From contig NZ_FNKO01000001.1 in assembly GCF_900100925.1 (NCBI RefSeq), positions 744,001-808,000 on the forward strand: DNA of 64,000 bases, written 5' to 3'. Below are positions 13,419 to 25,068 of the stretch, in pieces (position 1 is the stretch's first letter; each line of letters starts with the position of its first letter). The position numbers were made by a program, and so were the translations under genes. The notes under the pieces were generated by a model, which saw nothing but the letters and a program-made list of their open reading frames with translations, was not told the origin of the DNA and made no database searches. The DNA is from Actinopolyspora saharensis. GTDB taxonomy: Bacteria > Actinomycetota > Actinomycetes > Mycobacteriales > Pseudonocardiaceae.

Positions 13419-16208
13419 GTGGAGTCGGATCGATCCCGCCCGCACTTCGCGGGGTTGCACGCCCTGCTGACGCTGATCCAGAGCCTGTACCACCGGCCGC
13501 GGTTCTTCACCGCACCGTCGTCGCACGATCGTCGCGGGGACCAGCCGCTTCCGCTCGTGTGCCTGCACCGCGACCGCTCGGCGGCGAACTTCCTGCCCGC
13601 TTTGAAGGAATCCCTGGACAGCACGCTGCCGCAGGTTCCGCACACCCTCCTCGACGCGGACGAGGTCGCCGACACGGCCGCGGATGATGCCGCGGAGCCC
13701 CTCCTGCCGCTGCTGCACGCGCTCCAGCGGGAGCTCGGCAAGGACGAACTCACCTCGGGCGGCCTCGGTGAGTTCGACAACTACAAGCTCGTCGAGTGGC
13801 TCACTCGGCAGCACCTGCCACCGGAGCAGGGCAAACGGGACAGGCCGGTGGTCAACCTGCTCCGGGAGTGGACCGGTGGCCGCCCCGGGGGTGGAGGGTT
13901 GCGCTCGGTCGTGGCCGAGGTGCCGCACGCGTTGACCAGGTTCGTGCTGAGCGTGGTGCTCTGGATCGGGCAGCTGCTGGGTATGCGGTGGCTGGCGGGG
14001 CGGGTTCCGGGGCTGGGGGCCGAGGCCCGCTGGATCATGGGGCAGCGGTTCATGGTGCCGCGCCACTCCACCAGCTTCCAGGGGTTCGCCGAGCGCCTGA
14101 CCCTCGACAGGCGGGCCTCCGAGAGCGAGGAGCAGATCAAGAAGCTGCTGCTGCACGCGTTCCTGGAGGACCTCCGCATCGCCTACCGGCGCAGGCGGTG
14201 GCGGATCGTCCCGCGCAGGCCGGGGTGGCGCCGCACCACCTACGTCACCGTGCTGCTGGACAACATCGGCGAGGCCAACGGCGGCTGGGAACTGCTGCGG
14301 TTGATCAACGAGGTGCGCAACGAGACGGGCAGGCTCGATCCGCTCCTGGTCGTGGCGGCCACGGACGATCCACCTCGGCATCCGGAGGAACCCGCCCCCT
14401 CGTTCAACTCGGCGGTGCACGCGAACGAGGCGCTGTCCGAGTGGCGGCGACGGTTGCCCACTCGGCGGCAGAAACTCGCTCCCGACGCGCGCTACCTGCA
14501 CATCGAACTGCCGGTCGATGCCTCCGCTGCGGAGCTCTCCCAGGAGGACCACACGGCCTGGCAGGACCGGGTGGGCTGGCATCCCAGGCGTGCTCCGCTG
14601 CTGGCGCGGCGCTACCTCTGCGAGGCGCTCGTGCTGGTCCTGCTGACCGCGGGGCTGATTCAGCCCACCCTCACGGTCAGCGAGTCCGTGGGCGCGAACT
14701 GCGCGGTGGTCGGTCCGTGGTCGTCGGGAACCGTCTCCACTCGGGTGAGCGACCTCGGTCCCGCCGGTACCCAGTGTCTCGGCTACAGCGACAGCGCCGC
14801 GCAGGTGTTCGGGAGCAACGAGCGGCTGCGTTACGCGCAGTCGGCGGTGCACGCGCAGAACGAGCGGGCGAAGAGGTTGCACGAGGGGAATCCGGACCGG
14901 CCCTACGTCACCCTGGTCTACTTCGCGGGGTTGACGAACAGCAGTTCCGGTCCCAGGACCGATCACGCCGTGGCGGAGGAGCTGGAGGGGCTGCTGCTGC
15001 GTCAGCGGGAGCAGAACACGCGGTCCGATTCGGAGCCGCTGCTGCGCATCGTCGTCGCGAACGGCGGCACGGGGATGCGGGGCGCGCCCGAGGTGGCCCG
15101 GGAGCTGCTCGTGCCGCTGGTCGAGTCCGACCCCACGATCCTCGGTGTCGTCGGGATGGACCGCAGCGTGGTCGAGACCGAACAGGCCATCCGCATCCTC
15201 GGCGAGCACGGCGTTCCCGTGCTGGGGTCCACTCTGACCAGTACTGGGCTGGCCGAGTTGACTCCGTTGTACTTCCAGCTCGTGCCGGGCAACGAGCGGC
15301 AGGCCGAGCTTCTCGGCTCCTACGCGGCGCACGTCGACGCCTCGAGGATCACGGTCTATCACCCGCCGACGACCGGGCGGAACACCTATGCGGCGACCCT
15401 CCTGCGAGAGCTCACCCAACGGCTCCGGGACACGGGCATCGCGCTGGACAAGCGTGGTTGGAAGCGCTCGGTCAGCGAGTTGGAGCCACTGTGCGCCGAG
15501 CGCACCGACCGTCGTCGGGAAATCGCGTTCTACGCGGGCCGGGAGAACGCCTTCGGGGACTTCCTGCGGGCCGTCCGGCGCAACTGCACCGATTCCGCCG
15601 AGCTTCCCAGGATCGTGGCCTCGGATGCGGTGTCCCGGTTCGTCGCGGACAGCCGCAGTCGCGAGCACGCCGATTTCAACGGGGTGACGGTGTCCTACGT
15701 CGGCCTGGGCAGCCCGGTGGTGCTGGCCGGGCGGGACTGCGTGGCCGGCCGTGCCGATTCGCTGCCGGGAGCGGGACCGCAGCTCAGCGCGTTCTGCGCC
15801 GGCTACCACGGACTGCGCGAGGAGCTCCGCAGCGAGTTGCCGGACTCGGAGGTTCCGGACATGCCCTGGCCGGGTGAGCGGGTCGGTGGTCTGTACGACG
15901 CCGCGGGGTTGTTCGTCGACGCGGTCTTTGCCATCCGGCTCCAGCGGGGACCGGCGGGGGACGGTGTCACGCCGCACCGGGCCGAGGTGGCTCAGCAGCT
16001 CCGGGCGCTCACGTTCGAGGGGGCCACGGGCACGATCGATTTCGGCCGGTCCCGGATCGCCGACGAGCGCAGCCTCGCCGTGCTGCGGATCCGCAACATC
16101 AACGAGCTCGCCGGCCCGGAGGGGACGCCGTCCTGCGTCCATCTCATCGGGACGGTCTACGGCGGGGGGCACCCCGACACGGCGACGGGGTGCCCGCGGG
16201 GAGGGTGA
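13419..16208 (+). CDS. Membrane fusion of a degenerate NTPase-like domain with a periplasmic binding domain
   Basis: The 929-residue protein has three parts. Residues 1 to about 390 are cytoplasmic and resemble a STAND-like P-loop fold: there is a Walker-B-like VTVLLDNIGEANGG (279-289) and a following LLVVAATDD strand, but no Walker A lysine motif where one is expected. A single membrane helix follows near 397-416 (LVLVLLTAGLIQP). Residues from about 480 to the end form an extracellular type-1 periplasmic binding fold like the Leu/Ile/Val and receptor-family binding proteins (GVVGMDRSVVETEQAI, LTSTGLAE). No permease or ATPase of an ABC importer is nearby, so a sensor or receptor role is more likely than import. 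The GTG at 13419 has GAGGAG upstream. Confidence 0.75.
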   Translation: MESDRSRPHFAGLHALLTLIQSLYHRPRFFTAPSSHDRRGDQPLPLVCLHRDRSAANFLPALKESLDSTLPQVPHTLLDADEVADTAADDAAEPLLPLLHALQRELGKDELTSGGLGEFDNYKLVEWLTRQHLPPEQGKRDRPVVNLLREWTGGRPGGGGLRSVVAEVPHALTRFVLSVVLWIGQLLGMRWLAGRVPGLGAEARWIMGQRFMVPRHSTSFQGFAERLTLDRRASESEEQIKKLLLHAFLEDLRIAYRRRRWRIVPRRPGWRRTTYVTVLLDNIGEANGGWELLRLINEVRNETGRLDPLLVVAATDDPPRHPEEPAPSFNSAVHANEALSEWRRRLPTRRQKLAPDARYLHIELPVDASAAELSQEDHTAWQDRVGWHPRRAPLLARRYLCEALVLVLLTAGLIQPTLTVSESVGANCAVVGPWSSGTVSTRVSDLGPAGTQCLGYSDSAAQVFGSNERLRYAQSAVHAQNERAKRLHEGNPDRPYVTLVYFAGLTNSSSGPRTDHAVAEELEGLLLRQREQNTRSDSEPLLRIVVANGGTGMRGAPEVARELLVPLVESDPTILGVVGMDRSVVETEQAIRILGEHGVPVLGSTLTSTGLAELTPLYFQLVPGNERQAELLGSYAAHVDASRITVYHPPTTGRNTYAATLLRELTQRLRDTGIALDKRGWKRSVSELEPLCAERTDRRREIAFYAGRENAFGDFLRAVRRNCTDSAELPRIVASDAVSRFVADSRSREHADFNGVTVSYVGLGSPVVLAGRDCVAGRADSLPGAGPQLSAFCAGYHGLREELRSELPDSEVPDMPWPGERVGGLYDAAGLFVDAVFAIRLQRGPAGDGVTPHRAEVAQQLRALTFEGATGTIDFGRSRIADERSLAVLRIRNINELAGPEGTPSCVHLIGTVYGGGHPDTATGCPRGG
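16168..16196. terminator. Strong hairpin at the end of the receptor-like gene
   Basis: A perfect ten-base stem, GGGCACCCCG at 16168-16177 and CGGGGTGCCC at 16187-16196, lies inside the last codons of the gene. It is followed at once by a second hairpin with a T-run. Confidence 0.5.
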
Positions 16209-16209
16209 G

Positions 16210-16230
16210 ACCGCCACGCGGCGGTGTTTT
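16210..16230 (+). terminator. Rho-independent terminator
   Basis: ACCGCC (16210-16215) and GGCGGT (16220-16225) form a stem with an ACGC loop, followed by GTTTT. This is the most canonical terminator in the window. It sits between two convergent genes. Confidence 0.7.
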
Positions 16231-16323
16231 CCGGTGTGGACGGTGCTGCGGCCTCTCCCCGGCGTGGTGGTTGCCGCGCCGGGGAGCTCGTTCGTCGCTG
16301 CCGGGTGTTGCCGCGCGCGGTGT

Positions 16324-17352
16324 TCATCCGGTCGTGGTGCCGGTGGGCTGTCGGTGCGGTCTCCGACCGCGCCGCATGACGGGTTGTTCGATGAACCGCC
16401 AGCTCAGCGCCGCCGCCACGATGGTCAGCACCAGGGCGAGCGGTCCGGCCATCTGCCCGAGACCGGGCCGCAGCCACATGGTCAGCGGGTAGTTCCACAG
16501 GTAGGCGCCGTAGGACACGAGCCCGAGCGCCGCCAGCCCCCGGGACAGCAGCGCCTTGTCGGGCACCTCCTCCCAGCGGGACCAGGCCAGCACCAGCGCG
16601 GCGGTCAGGGCGGCGATGGCCGGGCCCGCGAGCAGGTAGGTCAGGGCGTGACCGCGCAGGGGGACGACCGACAGCACTGCCAGGCCCGTCAGGGTGAGCG
16701 GCACCAGTTTGGGCGAGATCCATTCTGCGTTGCCGCGCAACCGGGTCGCGGCGCCGATCACGAAGCACACGAACCACGAGGTGGGCAGCCCGTAGGCGTT
16801 GTCGGGGTGGGGCCACAGCCAGACGAGCGTTGCCACACAGCAGGCCAGCACGACCACCGCGGTGGCCACGAGCGCGGCCGTGACCTTCCGGCGGGGCCAG
16901 GCCAGCGCCAGCAGCGCGGGCCAGACCAGGTAGAACTGTTCCTCGGTGGCCAGTGTCCAGCAGTGGAACACGGCTCCGCTCAGGTGGATGATCGGAAGGT
17001 TGCCGGTAAACGTCAGCAGCGTCACCACGGTGACCGGCAGCCGGCTGTCGCCGTCGTCCAGCGGGGCGAGGGTCGTTGTCACCACGACGAACACGACGAT
17101 CATCACCAGCAGCGCGGGCAGCAGTCTGCGGGCCCGGCGCAGGTAGAAGCGCCGGTAGTCGATGCGTCCCCTGGTGGCCAGCTCCTTGGTCAACACCCCG
17201 GTGATCAGGTATCCGCTGAGCGTGAAGAACATGACGATGCCGACCACACCGGCGCCGGGGAACACGTCGGGGAACGCGTGACGCAGCATGACGAGCAGGA
17301 CAGCGATCCCGCGCAGCACGTTGAGGCCGGCGATCTGCCCTCCGCGGCTCAC
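16324..17352 (-). CDS. Acyltransferase-3 family membrane protein (candidate split VanT membrane half)
   Basis: The 342-residue protein has about ten membrane helices and OafA/YrhL features: an N-terminal GLNVLRGIAVLLVMLRHAF with the conserved Arg-His pair, FFTLSGYLITGVL, and HCWTLATEEQFYLVWP. The GTG at 17352 overlaps the stop of the ligase gene by four bases, so it is the last gene of the van-like operon. In VanT serine racemases of enterococci the racemase is fused to a membrane domain of this general family; here the two parts are separate proteins in one operon. A general O-acetyltransferase role is the alternative. Confidence 0.8.
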   Translation of the reverse strand: MSRGGQIAGLNVLRGIAVLLVMLRHAFPDVFPGAGVVGIVMFFTLSGYLITGVLTKELATRGRIDYRRFYLRRARRLLPALLVMIVVFVVVTTTLAPLDDGDSRLPVTVVTLLTFTGNLPIIHLSGAVFHCWTLATEEQFYLVWPALLALAWPRRKVTAALVATAVVVLACCVATLVWLWPHPDNAYGLPTSWFVCFVIGAATRLRGNAEWISPKLVPLTLTGLAVLSVVPLRGHALTYLLAGPAIAALTAALVLAWSRWEEVPDKALLSRGLAALGLVSYGAYLWNYPLTMWLRPGLGQMAGPLALVLTIVAAALSWRFIEQPVMRRGRRPHRQPTGTTTG

Positions 17353-18344
17353 CGGACGACCTGCGCCTGTGCGTTCCCGGCGGGAAGGGACGAGCGGACG
17401 AGGCGGTCCAGCAGGTCCGGGTAGGTCATCCCCTCGGCGGCGAACATCTTGGGCACTTGGGATTCGGCGGTCATGCCGGGCATCGTGTTCACCTCGTTGA
17501 GCACGGGCCCCTCGGGGGTGAGGAAGAAGTCGACCCGGGCGATTCCGCGGCAGCCGAGCGCCTCGTACATCCGCAGGGCCGACTCGGTCAGCGCCGTGCT
17601 CTCGGCGTCGGTCAGCTGGGCCGGGACGGTGAAGGCGGCGGTGCCGTCGTACTTGGTGGTGTTGTCGAACAAGCCGTCGTCGAGCAGGATCTCCAGCGGT
17701 GGCCCCACCCGGCGCCCGTGCTCCGGGTCGTCGAGCACCGCGAGGTCGATCTCCCGGCCGGCTGCGGTGTGCTCGACCAGCACCCGCTCGTCCAGTTCCA
17801 GCGCGGCCCGCAGGGCCGGTTGGAGTTGCTCGGCGGTCTCGACCAGGCGCACCCCGAAGCTCGATCCCGCGGCGATGGGTTTGACCACCACGGGCCGCTC
17901 GAAGACCACGGTGGGCAGGTCGGCTGCGGTGACCAGCTCGCCCGCCACGGTGCGCACGCCGACGGCCTCGGCCACCTGCTTGGTCGCCCACTTGTCCATC
18001 GCGAGCGCGCCTGCCCGCACCGGCGCGCCGACGTAGGGCACTCCGGCCAGTTCGCACAGCGCGGCAAGCGTCCCGTCCTCACCGCGCGGCCCGTGCAGCA
18101 GCGGCAGCACCACGTCGCAGCTTGCCAGCACCGTCAGCGCGGCGGCCAGGCTCTCGCCCGCCGCGGAGCCGAGCGGCTGGTCGTCGGGGCCCAACCAGCT
18201 GCCGTCGCGGAGGATGGTCAACGCCACCGTCTCGTAGGTGTCCGGGTCGAGCGCGGCACGCGCCGAGGCCGCGGAGGCCAGGGAGACCTCGTGCTCGCTG
18301 TTCTGCCCTCCGCCGACCACGGCCACCCGCAGTCGTTCGTTCAT
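17349..18344 (-). CDS. D-Ala-D-Ala / D-Ala-D-Ser ligase family (Ddl/VanC-like)
   Basis: The 331-residue ATP-grasp ligase joins D-alanine to a second D-residue for peptidoglycan. It shows the N-terminal substrate motif SEHEVSLASA (residues 16-25), the serine loop GSSFGV near 160, the Lys-Tyr omega loop TKYDG near 230, and the C-terminal metal site NEVNTMPG. Tyrosine in the omega loop argues against a D-lactate (VanA-type) ligase, which has histidine there. D-Ala-D-Ala and D-Ala-D-Ser activity cannot be separated by eye. ARVDFF and ALGCRGIARVD resemble Van-type ligases. It overlaps both neighbours by four bases. Confidence 0.88.
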   Translation of the reverse strand: MNERLRVAVVGGGQNSEHEVSLASAASARAALDPDTYETVALTILRDGSWLGPDDQPLGSAAGESLAAALTVLASCDVVLPLLHGPRGEDGTLAALCELAGVPYVGAPVRAGALAMDKWATKQVAEAVGVRTVAGELVTAADLPTVVFERPVVVKPIAAGSSFGVRLVETAEQLQPALRAALELDERVLVEHTAAGREIDLAVLDDPEHGRRVGPPLEILLDDGLFDNTTKYDGTAAFTVPAQLTDAESTALTESALRMYEALGCRGIARVDFFLTPEGPVLNEVNTMPGMTAESQVPKMFAAEGMTYPDLLDRLVRSSLPAGNAQAQVVR

Positions 18345-19489
18345 CGCATGCTCCTTCTGACTCGGTGACCGATGCCGGTCACGATTTCGTGGGGGATGGT
18401 GTCGGCCCAGCGCGCCCAGTCATCGACGGTCGGTTCGCCCTCCTCACCGGGGCCGAACACCACCGCCTCGGTGTCCGGCTCGACCAGCTGATCCCCCAGG
18501 TCGGCCACGAGCTGGTCCATCGAGATCATGCCCACGACCGGGCATCTTCGGCCCGCCACCGTGACCTGGGCCCGGTTCGAGGCGGCGCGGGGCACGCCGT
18601 CGGCGTAGCCGATCGGCAGCAGCGCCAGGTTGGTCGCGCGGTCGGTCACGTGGGTGTGCCCGTAGCCGAGCCCGGTGCCCGCGGGCACGCGGCGCACTTG
18701 GACGACGGGCGCGGTGAGGCGCAGCGCGGGGCGCAGGCGCGTGCTGCCGGAGGGGTCGATGCCGGCCAGCCCGGCGCCGATCCGGACCAGGTCCAGATGG
18801 GTGTCGGGGTCGGTCAACGTGGCGGCGGTGGCGGCCAAGTGGCGCACCGAGGGGCGCAGCCCGGCCTGCTCGGCCAGCGCGACCCCGCGGAGGAATTCCT
18901 GCCGCCCGGTCGTGTTCGGTGAGGGCCCCGGTTCGCCTGCCCGGGGCAGGTGTCCCATCACTCCCTCGACCGTGATGTGCCCGGCGCGTTCGGCGTGCCG
19001 GGCTGTGGCCATCAGCTCGGGCCACTCGTGCGGGGCGGCGCCGTCGCGGGCCATCCCCGTGTCGAGCTGGAGGTGCACCCGCGCCCGGTGCCCGGAGCGG
19101 GTGCAGGACTCGACCACGGCCGCGAGGTGTCGGCCGCTGGGCACGGCCAGGTCGATCCGGTGCTCGCAGGCGGTCGTCACGTCGGCGTCCACCGGGTTCA
19201 GCCAGCTCAGCACCGGCGCGTCCGCATCGGCCGCGCGTGCCTGGACGGCCTCGGCGATCGACGTGGCCCCGAGCCAGGTCGCGCCGTTCGCGAGGGCGGT
19301 TCTGGCCATCCTGTCCAGCCCGTGCCCGAATCCGTCGGCCTTGACCACGGCCATCACTTCTCCGCCGGTGGTGTGGGTGAAGTGGCGGGTGTTGGCGGCC
19401 ACGGCGGACAGGTCGATCTCCAGCAGGGGAGAGCGGGGCCCGGTGGTGGTTCGCGGCGGGTGCCGGGGGCGGGCCGCCGGTGCGCTCAT
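18341..19489 (-). CDS. Alanine racemase family (alanine or serine racemase)
   Basis: The 382-residue PLP enzyme has the cofactor lysine at residue 50 in VVKADGFGHG, a catalytic tyrosine near 275 in GLGYGHTHV, and the LLPIGYADGVPR and MISMDQL segments of the C-terminal beta domain. It would make D-alanine, or D-serine if it is a VanT-like racemase. ATGA overlaps link it to the dipeptidase upstream and the ligase downstream. The ATG at 19489 was chosen because of this overlap; an upstream extension is arginine-rich. It is probably not the housekeeping copy, given its operon partners. Confidence 0.87.
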   Translation of the reverse strand: MSAPAARPRHPPRTTTGPRSPLLEIDLSAVAANTRHFTHTTGGEVMAVVKADGFGHGLDRMARTALANGATWLGATSIAEAVQARAADADAPVLSWLNPVDADVTTACEHRIDLAVPSGRHLAAVVESCTRSGHRARVHLQLDTGMARDGAAPHEWPELMATARHAERAGHITVEGVMGHLPRAGEPGPSPNTTGRQEFLRGVALAEQAGLRPSVRHLAATAATLTDPDTHLDLVRIGAGLAGIDPSGSTRLRPALRLTAPVVQVRRVPAGTGLGYGHTHVTDRATNLALLPIGYADGVPRAASNRAQVTVAGRRCPVVGMISMDQLVADLGDQLVEPDTEAVVFGPGEEGEPTVDDWARWADTIPHEIVTGIGHRVRRSMR

Positions 19490-20097
19490 GCGGCCGTCTC
19501 CGCGTCGATCGGCCCGTAGATGGCGTGGTCGGTTCCGGTCAGCAGCGCCCAGTACCGGTCGCCGTAGGACCAGTGCCACCACTCGGTGGGGTAGTTGACC
19601 AGACCGGCGTCACCGAGGGCTCGCGCCAGCGTTGTCCGGTTGCGCCGCGCCGTCCGGTCCACCTCGGCGCCGAACCAGCACGCGCCGTCGCTGCTCTCGG
19701 GGGTGGCGTCGATCGGCGTTCCCATCCACAGTTCCTCTCCTGCCTCGTCGACCAGCGTCAGGTCGACCGCCGCTCCGGCCACGTGCGGAGCGACCGCGAT
19801 CGGGGAGACGAACCGGCTGGACAGCCGGTCCAGCTTGGTCTGATCGGCCTCGGGGTGCAGCAGGCGCAGCTCGTTGGTGTACTCGGTGATGATGGCTTGC
19901 TGGTCGCTCGCGCTGCGGTGCCCCTCCACGACCCGCAGTTCCACACCGGACGGAAGCGCGCCGCGTGCTTCGTCCAACCGGGCGGCGAGGCCTGCGCGCA
20001 CCAGCACACCCGGTGCGAAGTCCAGAGGCACCAGCGGGTCACCGTTGTCGTGGACCCGGACCGCGCGGACGCGCGGGTCGGCTAACAGAATTGTCAT
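19486..20097 (-). CDS. VanX-like D-Ala-D-Ala dipeptidase (peptidase M15D)
   Basis: The 203-residue zinc D,D-peptidase has the M15D ligands in the expected spacing: His105 and Asp112 (HVAGAAVD, seven residues apart as in VanX) and Glu172/His175 (TEWWH). Arg61 in EGHRS matches the catalytic arginine region. VanX hydrolyses D-Ala-D-Ala so that an altered precursor can replace it. The start is uncertain: the ATG at 20097 has no clear ribosome site and may be near-leaderless, and a GTG at 20133 is possible. It is the first gene of the four-gene operon. Confidence 0.82.
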   Translation of the reverse strand: MTILLADPRVRAVRVHDNGDPLVPLDFAPGVLVRAGLAARLDEARGALPSGVELRVVEGHRSASDQQAIITEYTNELRLLHPEADQTKLDRLSSRFVSPIAVAPHVAGAAVDLTLVDEAGEELWMGTPIDATPESSDGACWFGAEVDRTARRNRTTLARALGDAGLVNYPTEWWHWSYGDRYWALLTGTDHAIYGPIDAETAA

Positions 20098-20642
20098 ATA
20101 GCAGGACGCTATGTGCGTTTCGAATGCTGCCACATCGGTCAGAAGTACTGTGCTTACGTCTGAACGGCCGGGTTTTCGTTGGTGTGAATAGTCCGATCGG
20201 TCATTCGTCGGGGTGTTCCCGGCCGGAGCAGCGGGTTCCGCGCGGAATCCACGGCGTGGCACGCATGTGGGGTGCCCGGGCGGAATTGTGCTGTGGTCGG
20301 TGCGGTTGCCGTTCTCGGCCGAACGGATGAGGTGATGGTCGGCTCCGCGTGGGTGAGCCGACCTCGCGGGAGGCTGCGGGCGGCAGATGCAGCCGCTTTA
20401 CCCGGCCCAGGTCGATTTGAGTGCCCAACCCCGAGCTGTGGCCAGTTATTGGGGCTGTATCCAGCGCTGCTTGGCTGATCTGTACCCCGAGCTACCCTGG
20501 CCGGTGCAGTTTGCCGCTTCGGCCTCGTGCGGCTCGTGTGTGTTCGGCGGTAACATCGCTGGGTGTGGGGGTTGCGTGGGCTTCCTGGGCGCCTACGCTT
20601 CGACCTGCCTGTTCAGTTGCGCGAACATGTAAGGATTCTGGC
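20098..20642. other. Intergenic, no gene seen
   Basis: It contains the promoter side of the van-like operon near 20100-20160. The rest, to 20640, has lower and uneven GC content and broken frames. Together with the insertion-sequence remnant just downstream this looks like decayed mobile DNA. I cannot support a gene here. Confidence 0.4.
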
Positions 20643-20810
20643 GTGATCCTGCTGGTCGTGCGCGTGTTCGTGGGCCTCGCGCTGGTAGTGGTGGCCCTGT
20701 ACCCAGGTATTCCGCCGTACTGGCGCGGGGCCGTTGCACTGACGGTGACTTGTGGAGTGCTCTACTTGCTGGGGCGCACCGCCTGGCGCTGGTGGCAGCG
20801 TCCCCGGTGA
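20643..20810 (+). CDS. Small membrane peptide
   Basis: The 55-residue frame starts at a GTG with AAGGA nine bases upstream. It has two hydrophobic segments (VILLVVRVFVGLALVVVAL and ALTVTCGVLYLLG) and a basic, tryptophan-rich end. I do not recognise a family. The good ribosome site is the main evidence that it is expressed. Confidence 0.45.
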   Translation: MILLVVRVFVGLALVVVALYPGIPPYWRGAVALTVTCGVLYLLGRTAWRWWQRPR

Positions 20811-21313
20811 ACCCCAGTACCCGACGGGACTGGTATCCACGGGTATGCGGTGATGGTTCTGGCACTACCTGCAGCCCCGCCGTGGGGATCGCTACAGGTC
20901 CCAGTTCTCCGGTTGCTACGTCCAGCCCTCCCAGTCAGAAGCAGATCGACGCGCCGTCCTCCCAGAATTCCTGCACTGATACAACTTCCACCGAGACCAC
21001 ACCAGCATCGGCGGCCCACCAACCACCCGCATACCCAACCTCACCGGACAGAACAGCTAGTAGGCCCAGGCCCGGATCCGGTCGCGGGGTCGACCGCGTG
21101 GTTCCGGTCAGCGCTCGCGGGCGGGACTGCGGGAGTCCCGCCCGACCCGGGGATCAGCAGTCCCTCCCGCGTTCGGGTGGTCGGTGGCATGTTCGGTGTC
21201 GTGACGTGCCGCTGCGGAATCTCCGTGGTGTAGTGCTCACCGGCCGGGGCGGGGCGGTGCCCGCGTCCCGGAGACCGTGCACGACGATTCGCGCAGAAAG
21301 CATCAGTGAGTTC
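20811..21313. other. Intergenic holding the IS481 remnant
   Basis: Apart from the transposase fragment (about 20900-21060) I see no gene. The stretch 21061-21313 precedes the PPOX gene and shows no clear promoter. Confidence 0.4.
20900..21060 (+). pseudogene. IS481-family transposase, C-terminal remnant
   Basis: The frame ending at the TAG at 21058-21060 reads RRAVLPEFLH, an in-frame TGA, then YNFHRDHTSIGG and IPNLTGQNS. This matches the conserved C-terminus of IS481-type DDE transposases (HYN-HRPHT-GG, then NLTGQN). The TGA replaces a residue that is normally aromatic, and everything upstream of about 20900 is lost, so this is dead debris. Confidence 0.7.
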
Positions 21314-21778
21314 ATGCCACGTGTCGCCACTGCTGAGCGCGTCGATCGGGACGCGCTGCTCGAGTTCCTGCGCCCGCGTCATCGCGGGATCCTGATGACC
21401 ACCCGCTCCGGGGGACGTCCCCAGATGTCGCCGGTGACCTGCGGGGTCGACCCCGCGGGGCGGATCGTGGTCTCCACCTATCCGGAGCGGGCCAAGACCC
21501 GCAACGCCCGCCGCGAGCCGGGGGTGTCGATCTGCGTGCTCTCCGAGGAGTGGGACGGGCCGTACGTGCAGGTCGACGGCCGTGCCCGGGTGCTGGACAT
21601 GCCGGAGGCGCTGGACGGGCTCGTCGACTACTTCCGCTGCATCTCCGGTGAGCATCCGGACTGGGCCGAGTACCGGGAGGCGATGGCCCGGCAGGGCAAG
21701 TCCCTGATCCGCGTCGAGATCGAGGACTGGGGACCGATCGCCACCGGCGGGTTCCCGCCGCACCTCGTGGACTCCTGA
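21314..21778 (+). CDS. PPOX-class (pyridoxamine-oxidase fold) flavin or F420 enzyme
   Basis: The 154-residue split-barrel protein carries LLEFLRPRHRGILMTTRSGGRPQMSPVTCGVDPAGRIVVST, the opening of the actinobacterial PPOX-class F420-dependent family. KTRNARREPGVSICVLS and YVQVDGRARVLD follow. It probably binds F420 or FMN and reduces small substrates or degrades haem-like molecules; the cofactor is inferred from the family. The ATG at 21314 has only a weak AGAAAG site. It precedes the aromatic-acid genes but has no visible link to them. Confidence 0.82.
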   Translation: MPRVATAERVDRDALLEFLRPRHRGILMTTRSGGRPQMSPVTCGVDPAGRIVVSTYPERAKTRNARREPGVSICVLSEEWDGPYVQVDGRARVLDMPEALDGLVDYFRCISGEHPDWAEYREAMARQGKSLIRVEIEDWGPIATGGFPPHLVDS

Positions 21779-21900
21779 TTCGGGGAGCGGGGTCGCCTCC
21801 GGGTGCGACTGCCCGGAGTGGTCCATCAGGATTTCTGATTAATGATGAGCGGGGCAACCCGTCCCGGCCGCAGCGAGGTGCGGTCGGGACGGGTGACACG

Positions 21901-22419
21901 ATGACCCGCGTGACCGACCACGCCGAGGACGATGGCCCCGACGCGTCCGATGTCGACGCGCCGTTGACGCTGTACCTGGTCAAGCGGCTCGAGATGGTCA
22001 TGCGGGCGCTCATGGACGACGCGCTGCGCCCGCACGGCCTGACCACGCTGCAGTACACCGCGCTGACCGTGCTGGAACGGCGCGGGGAGCTGTCCTCGGC
22101 CCAGCTCGCGCGGCGCTCGTTCGTGACCCCGCAGACCATGCACGAGATGGTGCGGTGGCTGGAGCGGCACGAACTGGTGCACCGCAGGCGCGACGAGACC
22201 AACCGCCGCGTGCTGCTGATCGGTCTGACCCGGCGTGGCCGCGAGGTCGTGGCCACCTGCGCTCCCCTGATCGATGCTCTCGAGCGGCGCGTGCTGGACG
22301 CGATGAACCCGGGTGAGCGCCTGGTGTTCCGGGAGTGCCTCGAGCGTGGTCACGCCGCGCTGGCTCCGCTCGTGGACCGCGGGGCCGGCTCGGGCGAGTC
22401 CGCGGCCGCGGAGTCCTGA
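21901..22419 (+). CDS. MarR-family regulator, likely controls the ferulate genes
   Basis: The 172-residue winged-helix repressor has the MarR core LQYTALTVLERRGELSSAQLARRSFVTPQTMHEMVRWLERHELV and a wing with DETNRRVLLIGLT. MarR proteins of this type sense aromatic acids or their CoA thioesters (as CouR, FerC and FerR do), and this one lies just upstream of the crotonase and AMP-ligase. The order marR, hydratase-lyase, CoA-ligase matches known hydroxycinnamate operons, so repression relieved by feruloyl- or coumaroyl-CoA is the best inference. Confidence 0.85.
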   Translation: MTRVTDHAEDDGPDASDVDAPLTLYLVKRLEMVMRALMDDALRPHGLTTLQYTALTVLERRGELSSAQLARRSFVTPQTMHEMVRWLERHELVHRRRDETNRRVLLIGLTRRGREVVATCAPLIDALERRVLDAMNPGERLVFRECLERGHAALAPLVDRGAGSGESAAAES

Positions 22420-22609
22420 GGTCGCCGCGGACCGGGCGGTCGGTTCCCGCGTCCGCTGCCTCGCGATGCCGCCCGAACGGAGTATTGCGGCCGAGTTCGT
22501 CCTGTGTGCATTATCAGGAAACCTGATCAATTTGCTGCTGCCGCAGTGGGGACGGGTCTCGCTTCCGCGATCCCGTCCCGCCCCCGTTCCCCGCGCAAGG
22601 AGCCACTCG

Positions 22610-23461
22610 GTGACCACCACCCGCGAATCCGCCCCGGACCGGTACGAGACCGTCGCGATCGAGGTCGACGACTCCGGGATCGGCTGGCTCTCGTTCGACC
22701 GGCCGGCCAAGCGCAACGCGATGAACCCGACGTTGAACCGCGAGATGATCCTGGCGCTGGAACGGCTCGAAGCCGACGAGCGGGTCCGCGTGGTGGTGCT
22801 GACCGGCAACGGCCAGGCCTGGTCGGCCGGTATGGACCTCAAGGAGTACTTCCGCGAGGTCGAGCAGGCCCCGCCGCACGTGGAGAACCGGGCCCGCCGG
22901 GAGAGCGCCGAGTGGCAGTGGCGACGTCTGATCCACTTCGCCAAGCCCACCATCGCCATGGTCAACGGGTGGTGCTTCGGCGGCGCGTTCACACCGCTGG
23001 TGTGCTGTGACCTGGCCATCGCCGACGAGGACGCGACGTTCGGCTTGTCCGAGGTCAACTGGGGCATTCCACCCGGTGGGCTCGTCTCCCGCGCACTGGC
23101 CGAGACCGTGCCCTCGCGGGACGCGCTGTGGTTCATCATGACCGGCGAGACCTTCGACGGGTGCCGCGCGGAGCGGATGCGCCTGGTCAACGAGGCCGTG
23201 CCCACCGAGCGGTTGCGTGCGCGCACCGTGGAGGTGGCCACCCGGCTCGCGGGGATGAACACCCACGTGCTGCGCGCCGCGAAGGTCGGTTTCAAGAAGG
23301 TGCAGCAGCTGTCCTGGGACCAGGCCGAGGATTACCTCTACGCCAAGCTCGACGCCGCCACCGGCCACGACCCGGAGCAGGGCAAGCAGCAGGGGCTCAC
23401 CCAGTTCCTGGACGAGAAGAGCTATCGGCCGGGGCTCGGCGCCTACGAGAACGAGGCGTAG
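22610..23461 (+). CDS. ech: p-Hydroxycinnamoyl-CoA (feruloyl-CoA) hydratase-lyase
   Basis: This 283-residue crotonase-fold enzyme converts feruloyl-CoA to vanillin and acetyl-CoA. Family marks are GIGWLSFDRPAKRNAMNP at the start, the oxyanion loop GQAWSAGMDLKEYFRE, the WCFGGAFTPLVCCDLAIA helix, and FGLSEVNWGIPPG, which holds the catalytic glutamate of HCHL enzymes. The C-terminal KSYRPGLGAY tail is also typical. The GTG at 22610 follows AAGGAG. It lies 89 bases upstream of the CoA-ligase, in one operon. Confidence 0.88.
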   Translation: MTTTRESAPDRYETVAIEVDDSGIGWLSFDRPAKRNAMNPTLNREMILALERLEADERVRVVVLTGNGQAWSAGMDLKEYFREVEQAPPHVENRARRESAEWQWRRLIHFAKPTIAMVNGWCFGGAFTPLVCCDLAIADEDATFGLSEVNWGIPPGGLVSRALAETVPSRDALWFIMTGETFDGCRAERMRLVNEAVPTERLRARTVEVATRLAGMNTHVLRAAKVGFKKVQQLSWDQAEDYLYAKLDAATGHDPEQGKQQGLTQFLDEKSYRPGLGAYENEA

Positions 23462-23550
23462 CCGCGAGTGCCGCGGAACTGCCCCCCCCGTGATCGCGTC
23501 GCAGCGGGAGCGCGCACGGCGCCCGCCGCGGCGGGAGAGGTGAGACAGGC

Positions 23551-25068
23551 ATGCGCAACCAGGGACTGGGCTCCTGGCCTGCCCGGCGCGCTCGCAGCAC
23601 TCCGGACGGCATCGCCACGGTCCACCGGGGACGCACCCGGACCTACGGTGAGCTGTGCGGGCGCGTCCACGCGCTGGCCAACGGGCTGCACGGCCGCGGC
23701 CTCGGGCGCGGCGACCGGATCGCCTACCTCGGGCCGAACCACCCGGCGCTGCTGGAGACGCTGTTCGCCGCCGGGGTGCTCGGGGCCGTCTTCGTCCCGC
23801 TGAACACCAGGCTGGCCACGGACGAGCTCGCGTTCATGCTGGACGACTCCGGCGCCGGGGTGCTCGTCCACGACCGCCGGCACGCAGGCACCGCCCGCGC
23901 GCTGCGGGAGCGCTTCCCCGGGCTGGAGCTGGTCGTGGTGGCCGACGACGCGGCGGTGGCCGACGGTTTCGAGGCGCTGATCGCGGGTGCTTCGGACGAG
24001 CCGCGCGACGAACCCGTCGCCGCCGAGGACACGGCGCTGGTGCTGTACACATCCGGCACCACCGGGCGGCCGAAGGGGGCTCGGATCAGCCACGGCAACG
24101 CCGTGTGGAACGCGCTCAACGTGGTGGTGGACGTCGACCTCACCAGCACCGAGGTCACCCTGCTCAACGCTCCGCTGTTCCACAGCGCCACGTTGGGGAT
24201 GACCTGCCTGCCCACGCTGCTCAAGGGCGGCACGGTCGTGCTGGAGGAGGCCTTCGACGTCGAGGCCACCTTCGACCTCATCGAGCAGCGGCGGATCACG
24301 CTGGTTTTCGGGGTTCCGACCATGTTCGACGCGTTGAGCCGTTGTCCACGTTGGTCGACGGCCGATCTGTCGAGCCTGCGCTTCCTGCTGTGCGGCGGGG
24401 CGCCGGTTCCCGAGGAGCTCATCCGGCGCTACAGCGAACGGGGGCTGACCTTCATGCAGGGCTACGGCATGACCGAGGCCTCGCCCGGGGTGCTGCTGCT
24501 GAGCGCGGCCGACAGCACGGAGCGGGTCGGTTGCGCGGGCAAGCCCGCCTTCTTCAGCGACGTCCGGCTGGAGCGGGCGGACGGGTCGGTGCCCGCGGTC
24601 GGCGAGCCCGGTGAGGTCCTGGTCGCGGGCCCCAACGTCGTGGACGGCTACTGGCGGCGGCCGGGGGAGACGGCCGAGGCGTTCACCGCGGACGGCTGGT
24701 TCCGCTCCGGCGATGTGGCCACTGTCGACGGGGACGGGTTTCACCGCATCGTGGATCGGATCAAGGACATGTTCGTCTCCGGTGGGGAGAACGTTTACCC
24801 GGCCGAGGTGGAGGCGGTGCTGCACGAGCACCCCGCGGTCGCGGACGTGGCCGTGGTCGGCGTGCCCGATCCCACGTGGGGCGAGGTGGGCAAGGCGGTG
24901 GTCGTCGTCCAGCCGGGCGGGCGGGTCGAGACCGCCGAGCTCACCGCGTTCGCGGCCGAGCGGCTCGGCAAGTACAAGGTGCCCAAGAGCATCGCCCTGG
25001 TCGACGAGCTGCCGTGCGGTGCCACGGGCAAGGTGGACAAGGCCGCGCTTCGGCGCGAGCACGGCTGA
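23551..25068 (+). CDS. fcs: Acyl-CoA synthetase, probably feruloyl-CoA synthetase
   Basis: The 505-residue ANL-superfamily ligase has the AMP-binding signature LYTSGTTGRPKG, the GYGMTEASP motif, the DGWFRSGDVA hinge and the catalytic-lysine region LPCGATGKVDKAALRR. It would activate ferulate, coumarate or caffeate to CoA thioesters for the adjacent hydratase-lyase. Substrate choice rests on context only; a general fatty- or aromatic-acid ligase is the alternative. GGGAGAGG precedes the ATG. Confidence 0.85.
   Translation: MRNQGLGSWPARRARSTPDGIATVHRGRTRTYGELCGRVHALANGLHGRGLGRGDRIAYLGPNHPALLETLFAAGVLGAVFVPLNTRLATDELAFMLDDSGAGVLVHDRRHAGTARALRERFPGLELVVVADDAAVADGFEALIAGASDEPRDEPVAAEDTALVLYTSGTTGRPKGARISHGNAVWNALNVVVDVDLTSTEVTLLNAPLFHSATLGMTCLPTLLKGGTVVLEEAFDVEATFDLIEQRRITLVFGVPTMFDALSRCPRWSTADLSSLRFLLCGGAPVPEELIRRYSERGLTFMQGYGMTEASPGVLLLSAADSTERVGCAGKPAFFSDVRLERADGSVPAVGEPGEVLVAGPNVVDGYWRRPGETAEAFTADGWFRSGDVATVDGDGFHRIVDRIKDMFVSGGENVYPAEVEAVLHEHPAVADVAVVGVPDPTWGEVGKAVVVVQPGGRVETAELTAFAAERLGKYKVPKSIALVDELPCGATGKVDKAALRREHG

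Follow-up and report, generated by a model that had tools for sequence, protein, structure and literature searches.

A dipeptidase-racemase-ligase-acyltransferase operon in Actinopolyspora saharensis, a possible peptidoglycan-precursor switch of the D-Ala-D-Ser type

We analysed a stretch of 64,000 nucleotides of the Actinopolyspora saharensis genome (contig NZ_FNKO01000001.1, positions 744,001 to 808,000; hereafter the window), in which four overlapping genes encode a VanX-type dipeptidase, a racemase, a ligase of the D-Ala-D-Ala ligase (Ddl) family and an acyltransferase-3 membrane protein (AT3). From sequence comparisons, we consider it on balance probable that this operon is an actinobacterial peptidoglycan-precursor switch of the D-alanyl-D-serine (D-Ala-D-Ser) type, or of a D-Ala-D-X type, similar to the VanC/VanG systems in its working and separately evolved. 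The support comes from gene content, gene overlaps, synteny, residue differences, phylogeny and the conservation of an operator in relatives. The racemase would convert an L-amino acid to D-serine, and perhaps make D-Ala too, and the ligase would join D-Ala to D-Ser or another D-amino acid. The dipeptidase, presumably cytosolic, would remove the D-Ala-D-Ala of the housekeeping ligase, with the consequence that MurF would install the new dipeptide. The resulting lipid II would bind glycopeptide-type antibiotics more weakly, and AT3 may contribute an accessory acylation of an envelope component. Induction would be exerted by a linked response regulator in 52 of 73 conserved dipeptidase-racemase-ligase trios; for the window, the regulator, if any, would lie elsewhere. 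Should the ligase produce D-Ala-D-Ser, the kind of precursor switching known from VanC/VanG would have at least two origins and would be present in many actinobacterial families.

The four genes lie on the reverse strand in the order dipeptidase (20097..19486, 203 residues), racemase (19489..18341, 382 residues), ligase (18344..17349, 331 residues) and AT3 (17352..16324, 342 residues, GTG start), with four-base overlaps at all three junctions (ATGA, ATGA and GTGA) and a third-position GC content of 0.86-0.93. A preliminary description of the stretch, made from the letters alone, had given this layout, and Pfam confirms all four families above cut-off (Peptidase_M15; Ala_racemase_N/_C; Dala_Dala_lig_N/_C; Acyl_transf_3). 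The longest open reading frame of the dipeptidase opens at a GTG at 20262; matches in most relatives start at the residue of the ATG at 20097, which we took as the start. In the host genome, 4.68 Mb in two contigs, the operon dipeptidase is the sole PF01427 match; a second racemase (48% identical to the operon copy) and a second ligase (43% identical) lie elsewhere, so that the operon enzymes are paralogues.

Relatives of the dipeptidase were found in at least 519 matched stretches of the genome collection, of which the best 80 loci were kept for synteny counts. These counts rest on tblastn matches; a first neighbourhood clustering was dropped in their favour, as it mixed shadow frames with real genes in this GC-rich DNA. 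The racemase comes next after the dipeptidase in 75 of the 80 loci, and the whole trio (here the cassette, with or without AT3) is kept in 73, a total that includes L027, with truncated racemase and ligase matches, and L020, with a racemase match in two pieces. Because order and strand are retained in 73 of 80 related loci, the trio is not the result of chance. An AT3 match follows the ligase in 37 of the 73 trios; none was found by tblastn in the other 36, two of which (L056 and L078) stop at the ligase. A response regulator, detected with a NarL-type query, lies beside 52 of the 73 trios, or 51 of the 69 that have more than 3 kb of downstream sequence. Among the best 80 loci, the genera include Actinopolyspora, Lentzea, Saccharothrix, Nocardioides, Jiangella, Frankia, Oerskovia and Cellulomonas; viewed genome by genome, the distribution is sporadic, with a dipeptidase match at E <= 1e-30 in at least 7 of 396 genomes of the phylum, a count for which no more than 8 preselected candidates were scored in each genome. 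In Saccharothrix sp. ALI-22-I (L027:8068-10504) the truncated racemase and ligase matches lie 43 bases apart, as if a junction-spanning piece had been lost. For the alignments, after exclusion of loci whose best match held a stop or covered less than 85% of the query, 81 dipeptidases, 74 racemases, 73 ligases and 36 AT3 proteins were kept, window included; 71 racemase-ligase pairs had both enzymes kept, counting L062 and L064, which are not trios.

The racemase is a pyridoxal 5'-phosphate (PLP) enzyme of the alanine-racemase fold (PF01168/PF00842), with a specificity that we predict to be for serine or broad. In the Geobacillus alanine racemase, specificity is controlled by the inner-layer residue Tyr354, which binds the phosphate of PLP (PMC3485190, PMC4517790). 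At this gate the window enzyme has His367, and at the Asn-Ser phosphate site it has Ala220-Thr221. The gate residue is His in 68 and Asn in 3 of the 71 pairs, Tyr in none (His 71 and Asn 3 across all 74 aligned cassette racemases). All 22 stand-alone racemases taken from the order have Tyr there; they are the second copy of the window genome and 21 of the 30 best-scoring loci from 150 genomes of the order, not a random draw. The 9 remaining loci of those 30, the window among them, combine a His gate with an adjoining ligase, and all eight racemases of the order fetched beside a cassette-type ligase have His. As a reference we used the VanG-type cluster at L125:4102-8065, a vanG, vanXY, vanT set on a 335 kb record of Subdoligranulum variabile labelled as a plasmid (OY725857.1). 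Its VanT has Asn at the gate and, as in most cassette racemases, Ala for the phosphate-site Asn; the residue pattern is FATGYH in the window, YASGYN in this VanT and, for the most part, YNSSYY in racemases that stand alone. Asn is also reported at the gate of VanT from E. gallinarum (PMC3485190). A T. tengcongensis racemase with Gln at this position has 28% relative activity on L-Ser, sharply lower in its Tyr mutant, and for its paralogue with His a much broader specificity is described (PMC4517790). The published work supports the meaning that we give to the gate change, not the exact case. A second candidate mark of VanT likeness, Ser264 to Gly, was dropped, since E. faecalis Alr (L091) aligns Gly in the same column. 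Three plasmid racemases labelled 'vanT' by RGI (L091, L092 and L093, the second on the same record as L125) all have Tyr at the gate, L091 and L093 in housekeeping surroundings, and look like ordinary alanine racemases. In Promicromonospora (L062, L064) the gate is Asn as in VanT, the ligase is divergent from the racemase and the dipeptidase lies about 2 kb away.

A racemase tree was built with the trait columns removed, on 49 rows that include 22 cassette rows and one VanT, eight Tyr-type rows being left out as well. Cassette and other His-type racemases form one clade in it (31 of the 49 rows, support 99/93), and forcing the one VanT into this clade lowers the log-likelihood by 58 and is rejected by the approximately unbiased (AU) test (p 0.0019). 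By this phylogeny, the cassette racemase is grouped with actinobacterial racemases, apart from the one VanT tested. On the NCBIfam vanT-L-cat model, the window racemase scores 52 bits for a cut-off of 750.

The ligase is an ATP-grasp enzyme of the Ddl family (PF07478/PF01820). In alignments to VanG (PDB 4fu0 and L125), its Leu217, Phe226 and Gln296 occupy the places of VanG Asp243, Phe252 and Arg324, residues that we take to set the choice of D-Ser. The pocket was compared with those of three Van ligases (a VanG, a VanA and a VanO example) and of 30 housekeeping ligases, which were the top 30 matches in 61 genomes and are no random sample. At position 226, all 71 cassette ligases and all three Van examples have Phe, and all 30 housekeeping ligases have Tyr. 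At position 296, 70 of the 71 cassette ligases have Gln and each Van example has Arg; the housekeeping ligases have Met (22), Ala (4), Leu (3) and Gln (1). Position 217 is Leu in 70 of 71 cassette ligases. Judged by these alignments, the pocket resembles that of the Van ligases at one position, and at two more it has private residues. The omega-loop pair Lys231-Tyr232, which the preliminary description had pointed out, is indeed invariant in 73 of 73 aligned cassette ligases; it is also common to VanG and the housekeeping ligases, the VanA example having Lys-Gly and the VanO example Ser-Gly, and it therefore argues against D-lactate (D-Lac) but is no guide to the choice between D-Ser and D-Ala.

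The two private positions bring in an alternative, namely a D-Ala-D-X module in which X is not serine and which serves wall remodelling, not antibiotic evasion. Gln296 and Leu217 differ from VanG and from nearly all the housekeeping ligases compared, the His gate suggests broad over strictly serine specificity (PMC4517790), and the cassette occurs in many genera with no known resistance role. However, Phe226 is common to Van ligases, and the VanX-type partner and the linked two-component genes fit the logic of resistance, so that we hold this alternative to be improbable, though deserving of attention.

In a quick tree of 36 cassette-type ligases (27 of them subsampled cassette rows), 30 housekeeping ligases and three Van ligases, 29 of the 36, window included, form a clade (support 98 in this quick tree), the VanG, VanA and VanO examples come together (99) and so do the 30 housekeeping ligases (99). 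The other seven cassette-type ligases (L062, L064, L090, L094, L100, L105 and L109) fall beside the housekeeping ones. Because cassette racemases and ligases branch apart from VanT and the Van ligases, their VanT-like and VanG-like residues look convergent. On a linear plasmid of Streptomyces coelicoflavus (L094:5986-8247), a single gene of 753 residues, annotated as alanine racemase only, encodes a His-type racemase and a Phe/Gln-type ligase in one fused protein.

The dipeptidase scores 52.9 bits on Pfam PF01427 (cut-off 27) and 24.7 bits on the Pfam VanY model (cut-off 25). Its His105, Asp112, Glu172 and His175, already named in the preliminary description, match the catalytic residues of VanX when the two are aligned, and they do not vary across an alignment of 43 rows. 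In the same alignment, equivalents within the M15 fold of VanX Arg71, His116, Asp123, Glu181 and His184 are all present, residues whose functional roles in VanX we assume to apply. VanX (1r44, E 5e-12) is the sole match at E <= 0.01 of a 43-dipeptidase profile among the PDB chains, and hhalign gives the family a probability of 96.6% with VanX and of 6.6% with VanXY. The NCBIfam VanX equivalog model gives 33.6 bits for a cut-off of 320; the enzyme is therefore a VanX relative, not VanX itself. These comparisons make it an enzyme of VanX type and not of the VanXY type that the VanG cluster has; no signal peptide was evident by eye. Of the earlier designation of the operon as a VanC/VanG-type set there remain the dipeptidase-racemase-ligase logic, paralogues distinct from the other racemase and ligase of the genome, and pockets changed at positions that tell the Van examples from housekeeping enzymes; the peptidase class does not agree with it.

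Several observations weigh against a D-Ala-D-Ser-type switch. No glycopeptide link or phenotype is known for the operon, no regulator gene was seen adjoining it in the window, and its upstream box is weak. The racemase passes the NCBIfam alanine racemase model (258 vs 168 bits) and fails the VanT models. NCBIfam models for D-Ala-D-Ala ligases accept the ligase, with scores of 293 (cut-off 262) and 274 (cut-off 246), and all the listed NCBIfam Van models stay short of their cut-offs on it; on the VanG model (cut-off 495, passed by a control VanG with 498) it is beaten by the housekeeping ligase of its own host (316 vs 240 bits). It falls outside the Van ligase group in the quick tree, VanG Arg324 and Asp243 are replaced in it by Gln and Leu, and Gln296 is also found in one housekeeping ligase (L150). 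Furthermore, cassette ligases retain Ser161 and Tyr232 (VanG, too, keeps Lys-Tyr), which we presume to be the counterparts of a specificity pair known from other ligases. Such a pair has been linked to D-Ala-D-Ala-only ligases (PMC7691350). As to the racemase gate, His is present at the Tyr354 site of an enzyme named alanine racemase, and a Gln-to-His change in AlrTt lifted alanine activity 2.2-fold (PMC4517790), so the His enzyme may still be an alanine racemase.

Part of this evidence would suit a stress-induced second supply of D-Ala-D-Ala, directed against D-cycloserine-like inhibitors or used in growth transitions, with the dipeptidase recycling D-Ala-D-Ala. The retained Ser161 and Tyr232 agree with it, and D-cycloserine resistance is known to result from extra Ddl (PMC7691350). 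A co-transcribed VanX-type hydrolase of D-Ala-D-Ala would, however, undo the product of the ligase, and the pockets of racemase and ligase are both off the housekeeping state, with the new residues held across many families. We regard a second supply as unlikely, if still a serious competitor of the precursor switch.

AT3 scores 99 bits on PF01757 (cut-off 31), carries an R-x10-H motif and contains a stretch, HxWTLAxEEQFY, that is invariant in 14 aligned rows (14 of the 36 AT3 rows). The membrane part of VanT belongs to the same Pfam family, and the preliminary description had seen in racemase and AT3 a split VanT. This was not supported: besides the separate position of the racemase, the AT3 proteins of the window, L011 and L030 have no match to vanT-CELN or vanT-L-mem at E <= 0.001, two models that the VanT control does match, and between AT3 and the membrane part of the L125 VanT there is no real match (BLAST E 0.8, hhalign probability 0.5%). 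A split VanT of firmicute origin was accordingly rejected on the evidence of the racemase tree with its AU test, by the VanT models and by the AT3 comparisons. The broader proposal, that a split VanC/VanG operon was acquired from Firmicutes, would account for the same functional classes, acyltransferase-3 domain included; the grouping of both racemase and ligase apart from VanT and the Van ligases (the AU test involving one VanT), an AT3 unlike the VanT membrane part and a peptidase of VanX and not VanXY type make it scarcely credible. In another lineage (L105:2613-3773), a different acyltransferase-3 gene (PF01757, 113 bits) lies directly upstream of a His-type racemase and ligase.

The function of the VanT acyltransferase domain has, according to one paper, not been considered so far, and resistance mutations fall in it (PMC12423673); elsewhere, introducing a study's own vanT mutations failed to reproduce resistance (PMC11326576). 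If the ligase makes D-Ala-D-Ser, the operon would offer a handle on the role of this domain, for AT3 is a separate gene, present in 37 of the 73 trios, that can be compared or deleted without touching the racemase. One might speculate further that Actinobacteria invented an inducible D-Ala-D-Ser switch independently of Firmicutes, from a VanX-type dipeptidase, a re-gated racemase, a re-pocketed ligase and a NarL-type regulator with its own promoter box, and that the recurring acyltransferase-3 partner, a domain of VanT itself but here a gene of its own, points to a missing step common to both, in which the hydroxyl of the new D-Ser, or the envelope close by, would be acylated to block antibiotics further. 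This extended scenario seems to us doubtful.

The regulator pairs scanned are of NarL type: the kinases of L032 and L086 have a HisKA_3 domain, and the regulator of L086 combines a receiver with a DNA-binding domain of LuxR type. Upstream of the 51 of 52 regulator-linked loci with enough sequence, which are related loci and not independent draws, a 20-base box (CCGG-C/T-ACCT-C/G-AGG-T/C-GGAGGC) has its best match at -51 to -53 from the start codon in 48, and in 48 of the 51 it exceeds the 99% level of shuffled sequences under leave-one-out scoring. The window has a weak counterpart on the reverse strand at 20132..20151, ACAGTACTTCTGACCGATGT at -54 (score 0.7, p about 0.05), which is suggestive only. 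Eighteen upstream regions for which no linked regulator is known were scored as well, those of 16 loci, of the window and of L096, where the flanks do not reach far enough to decide; two of the 18, L011 and L023, pass p 0.02. A putative -10 hexamer, TAGCGT, lies at 20106..20111 on the reverse strand, eight bases before the ATG. Because TAGNNT stands directly upstream of the start codon (38 of 69 loci examined, with TAGCGT in 25), it suggests that dipeptidase-led messages are leaderless. Elsewhere in the window genome, the best response-regulator match (C2:1747497, 53%) sits beside a kinase match (C2:1746568) whose similarity is confined to the catalytic part; as a trans regulator of the window operon, this candidate is unproven. 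Among the Lentzea loci L012-L017, L019-L022 and L025, 8 of 11 share a near-palindrome, GAACCGGCCGTTCGGC, which lies some 60-75 bases ahead of the start and does not resemble the regulator-linked box.

An actinobacterial host and a ligase of ATP-grasp type would be in keeping with membership of a natural-product cluster, D-Ala-D-X being a building block or a means of self-protection. The scanned flanking genes are ordinary, however (FAD monooxygenase, MarR, enoyl-CoA hydratase, acyl-CoA synthetase and a PNPOx-type protein), and the rough clustering, mixed with shadow frames, gave few widely shared neighbours, the exception being a downstream family in 50 loci that corresponds to the two-component region; we judge such membership very unlikely. 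The MarR regulator, enoyl-CoA hydratase and AMP-binding acyl-CoA synthetase are consecutive (21901-25068) and probably serve aromatic or fatty acid catabolism. On the other side (13419-16208), an open frame of 929 residues is convergent with the operon and shows similarity to periplasmic binding proteins (Peripla_BP_6), slightly under cut-off, near its C terminus. An Rfam scan of 15000-22000 gave nothing that reached the gathering score.

We found no description of the four-gene set in the literature searched, and in the available parts of PMC8698665 the trio is unmentioned, the word Nocardioides being absent from its main text; the earlier statement that this is not a described Van type thus stands for the exact set, next to related actinobacterial arrangements in that paper. 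As that paper suggests D-Ala-D-Ser in Actinobacteria and, in the same parts, omits the trio, a D-Ser route in Actinobacteria is an idea that has been put forward before, and the cassette, the pocket evidence, the convergence, the AT3 partner and the promoter box appear to be new. Actinobacteria are also held there to be the likeliest primary source of van-like genes (PMC8698665).

Compared with the systems already described, the cassette resembles the pdx operon of Micromonosporales in its Ddl-like ligase, VanX-like dipeptidase and two-component system, and for pdx a D-Ala-D-Ser-like mechanism has been proposed; pdx has a PALP-type serine-threonine dehydratase and VanRS-like regulators, whereas the cassette has an enzyme of the alanine-racemase fold (PMC8698665). 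The rare vanRS-vanY groups with racemase and ddl of Allonocardiopsis, Murinocardiopsis and some Geodermatophilales, for which D-Ala-D-Ser has been suggested too, share an M15 peptidase, racemase, Ddl and regulator with the cassette; they have a VanY carboxypeptidase in place of the VanX-type dipeptidase, and neither AT3 nor a NarL-type system is mentioned for them in the available text (PMC8698665). Akin to these is L102 (L102:725-3533), where a His-type racemase and a Gln-type ligase, both of cassette type, are preceded by a VanY-type carboxypeptidase in place of the VanX-type dipeptidase, with a response-regulator-like frame, judged by eye, on the opposite strand. At L109:3018-3755, an OmpR-type response regulator (Trans_reg_C domain) is divergent from a His-type racemase-ligase pair. 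The vanHAX systems (VanA, VanO; D-Ala-D-Lac) have in common with the cassette a VanX-type dipeptidase and Phe at ligase position 226; unlike them, the cassette has no VanH dehydrogenase among its four genes, and has Lys-Tyr at 231-232 against Lys-Gly or Ser-Gly. In VanL, as here, membrane and racemase functions are on separate proteins (NCBIfam vanT-L-mem and vanT-L-cat), and these two-subunit models mean that a split VanT is already recognised; the cassette differs in an AT3 that the first model does not match and a racemase far under the cut-off of the second. Finally, the VanG-type operon (vanG-vanXY-vanT, L125) likewise combines a racemase, a D-Ala-D-X ligase and an M15 peptidase, with a non-Tyr residue at racemase position 354 and the Phe252 equivalent and omega-loop Lys-Tyr in the ligase. 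The cassette departs from it in gene order, in a VanX-type enzyme for VanXY, in Gln and Leu for Arg324 and Asp243, in a racemase of another lineage without membrane domain, and in an AT3 that is separate and unlike that of VanT.

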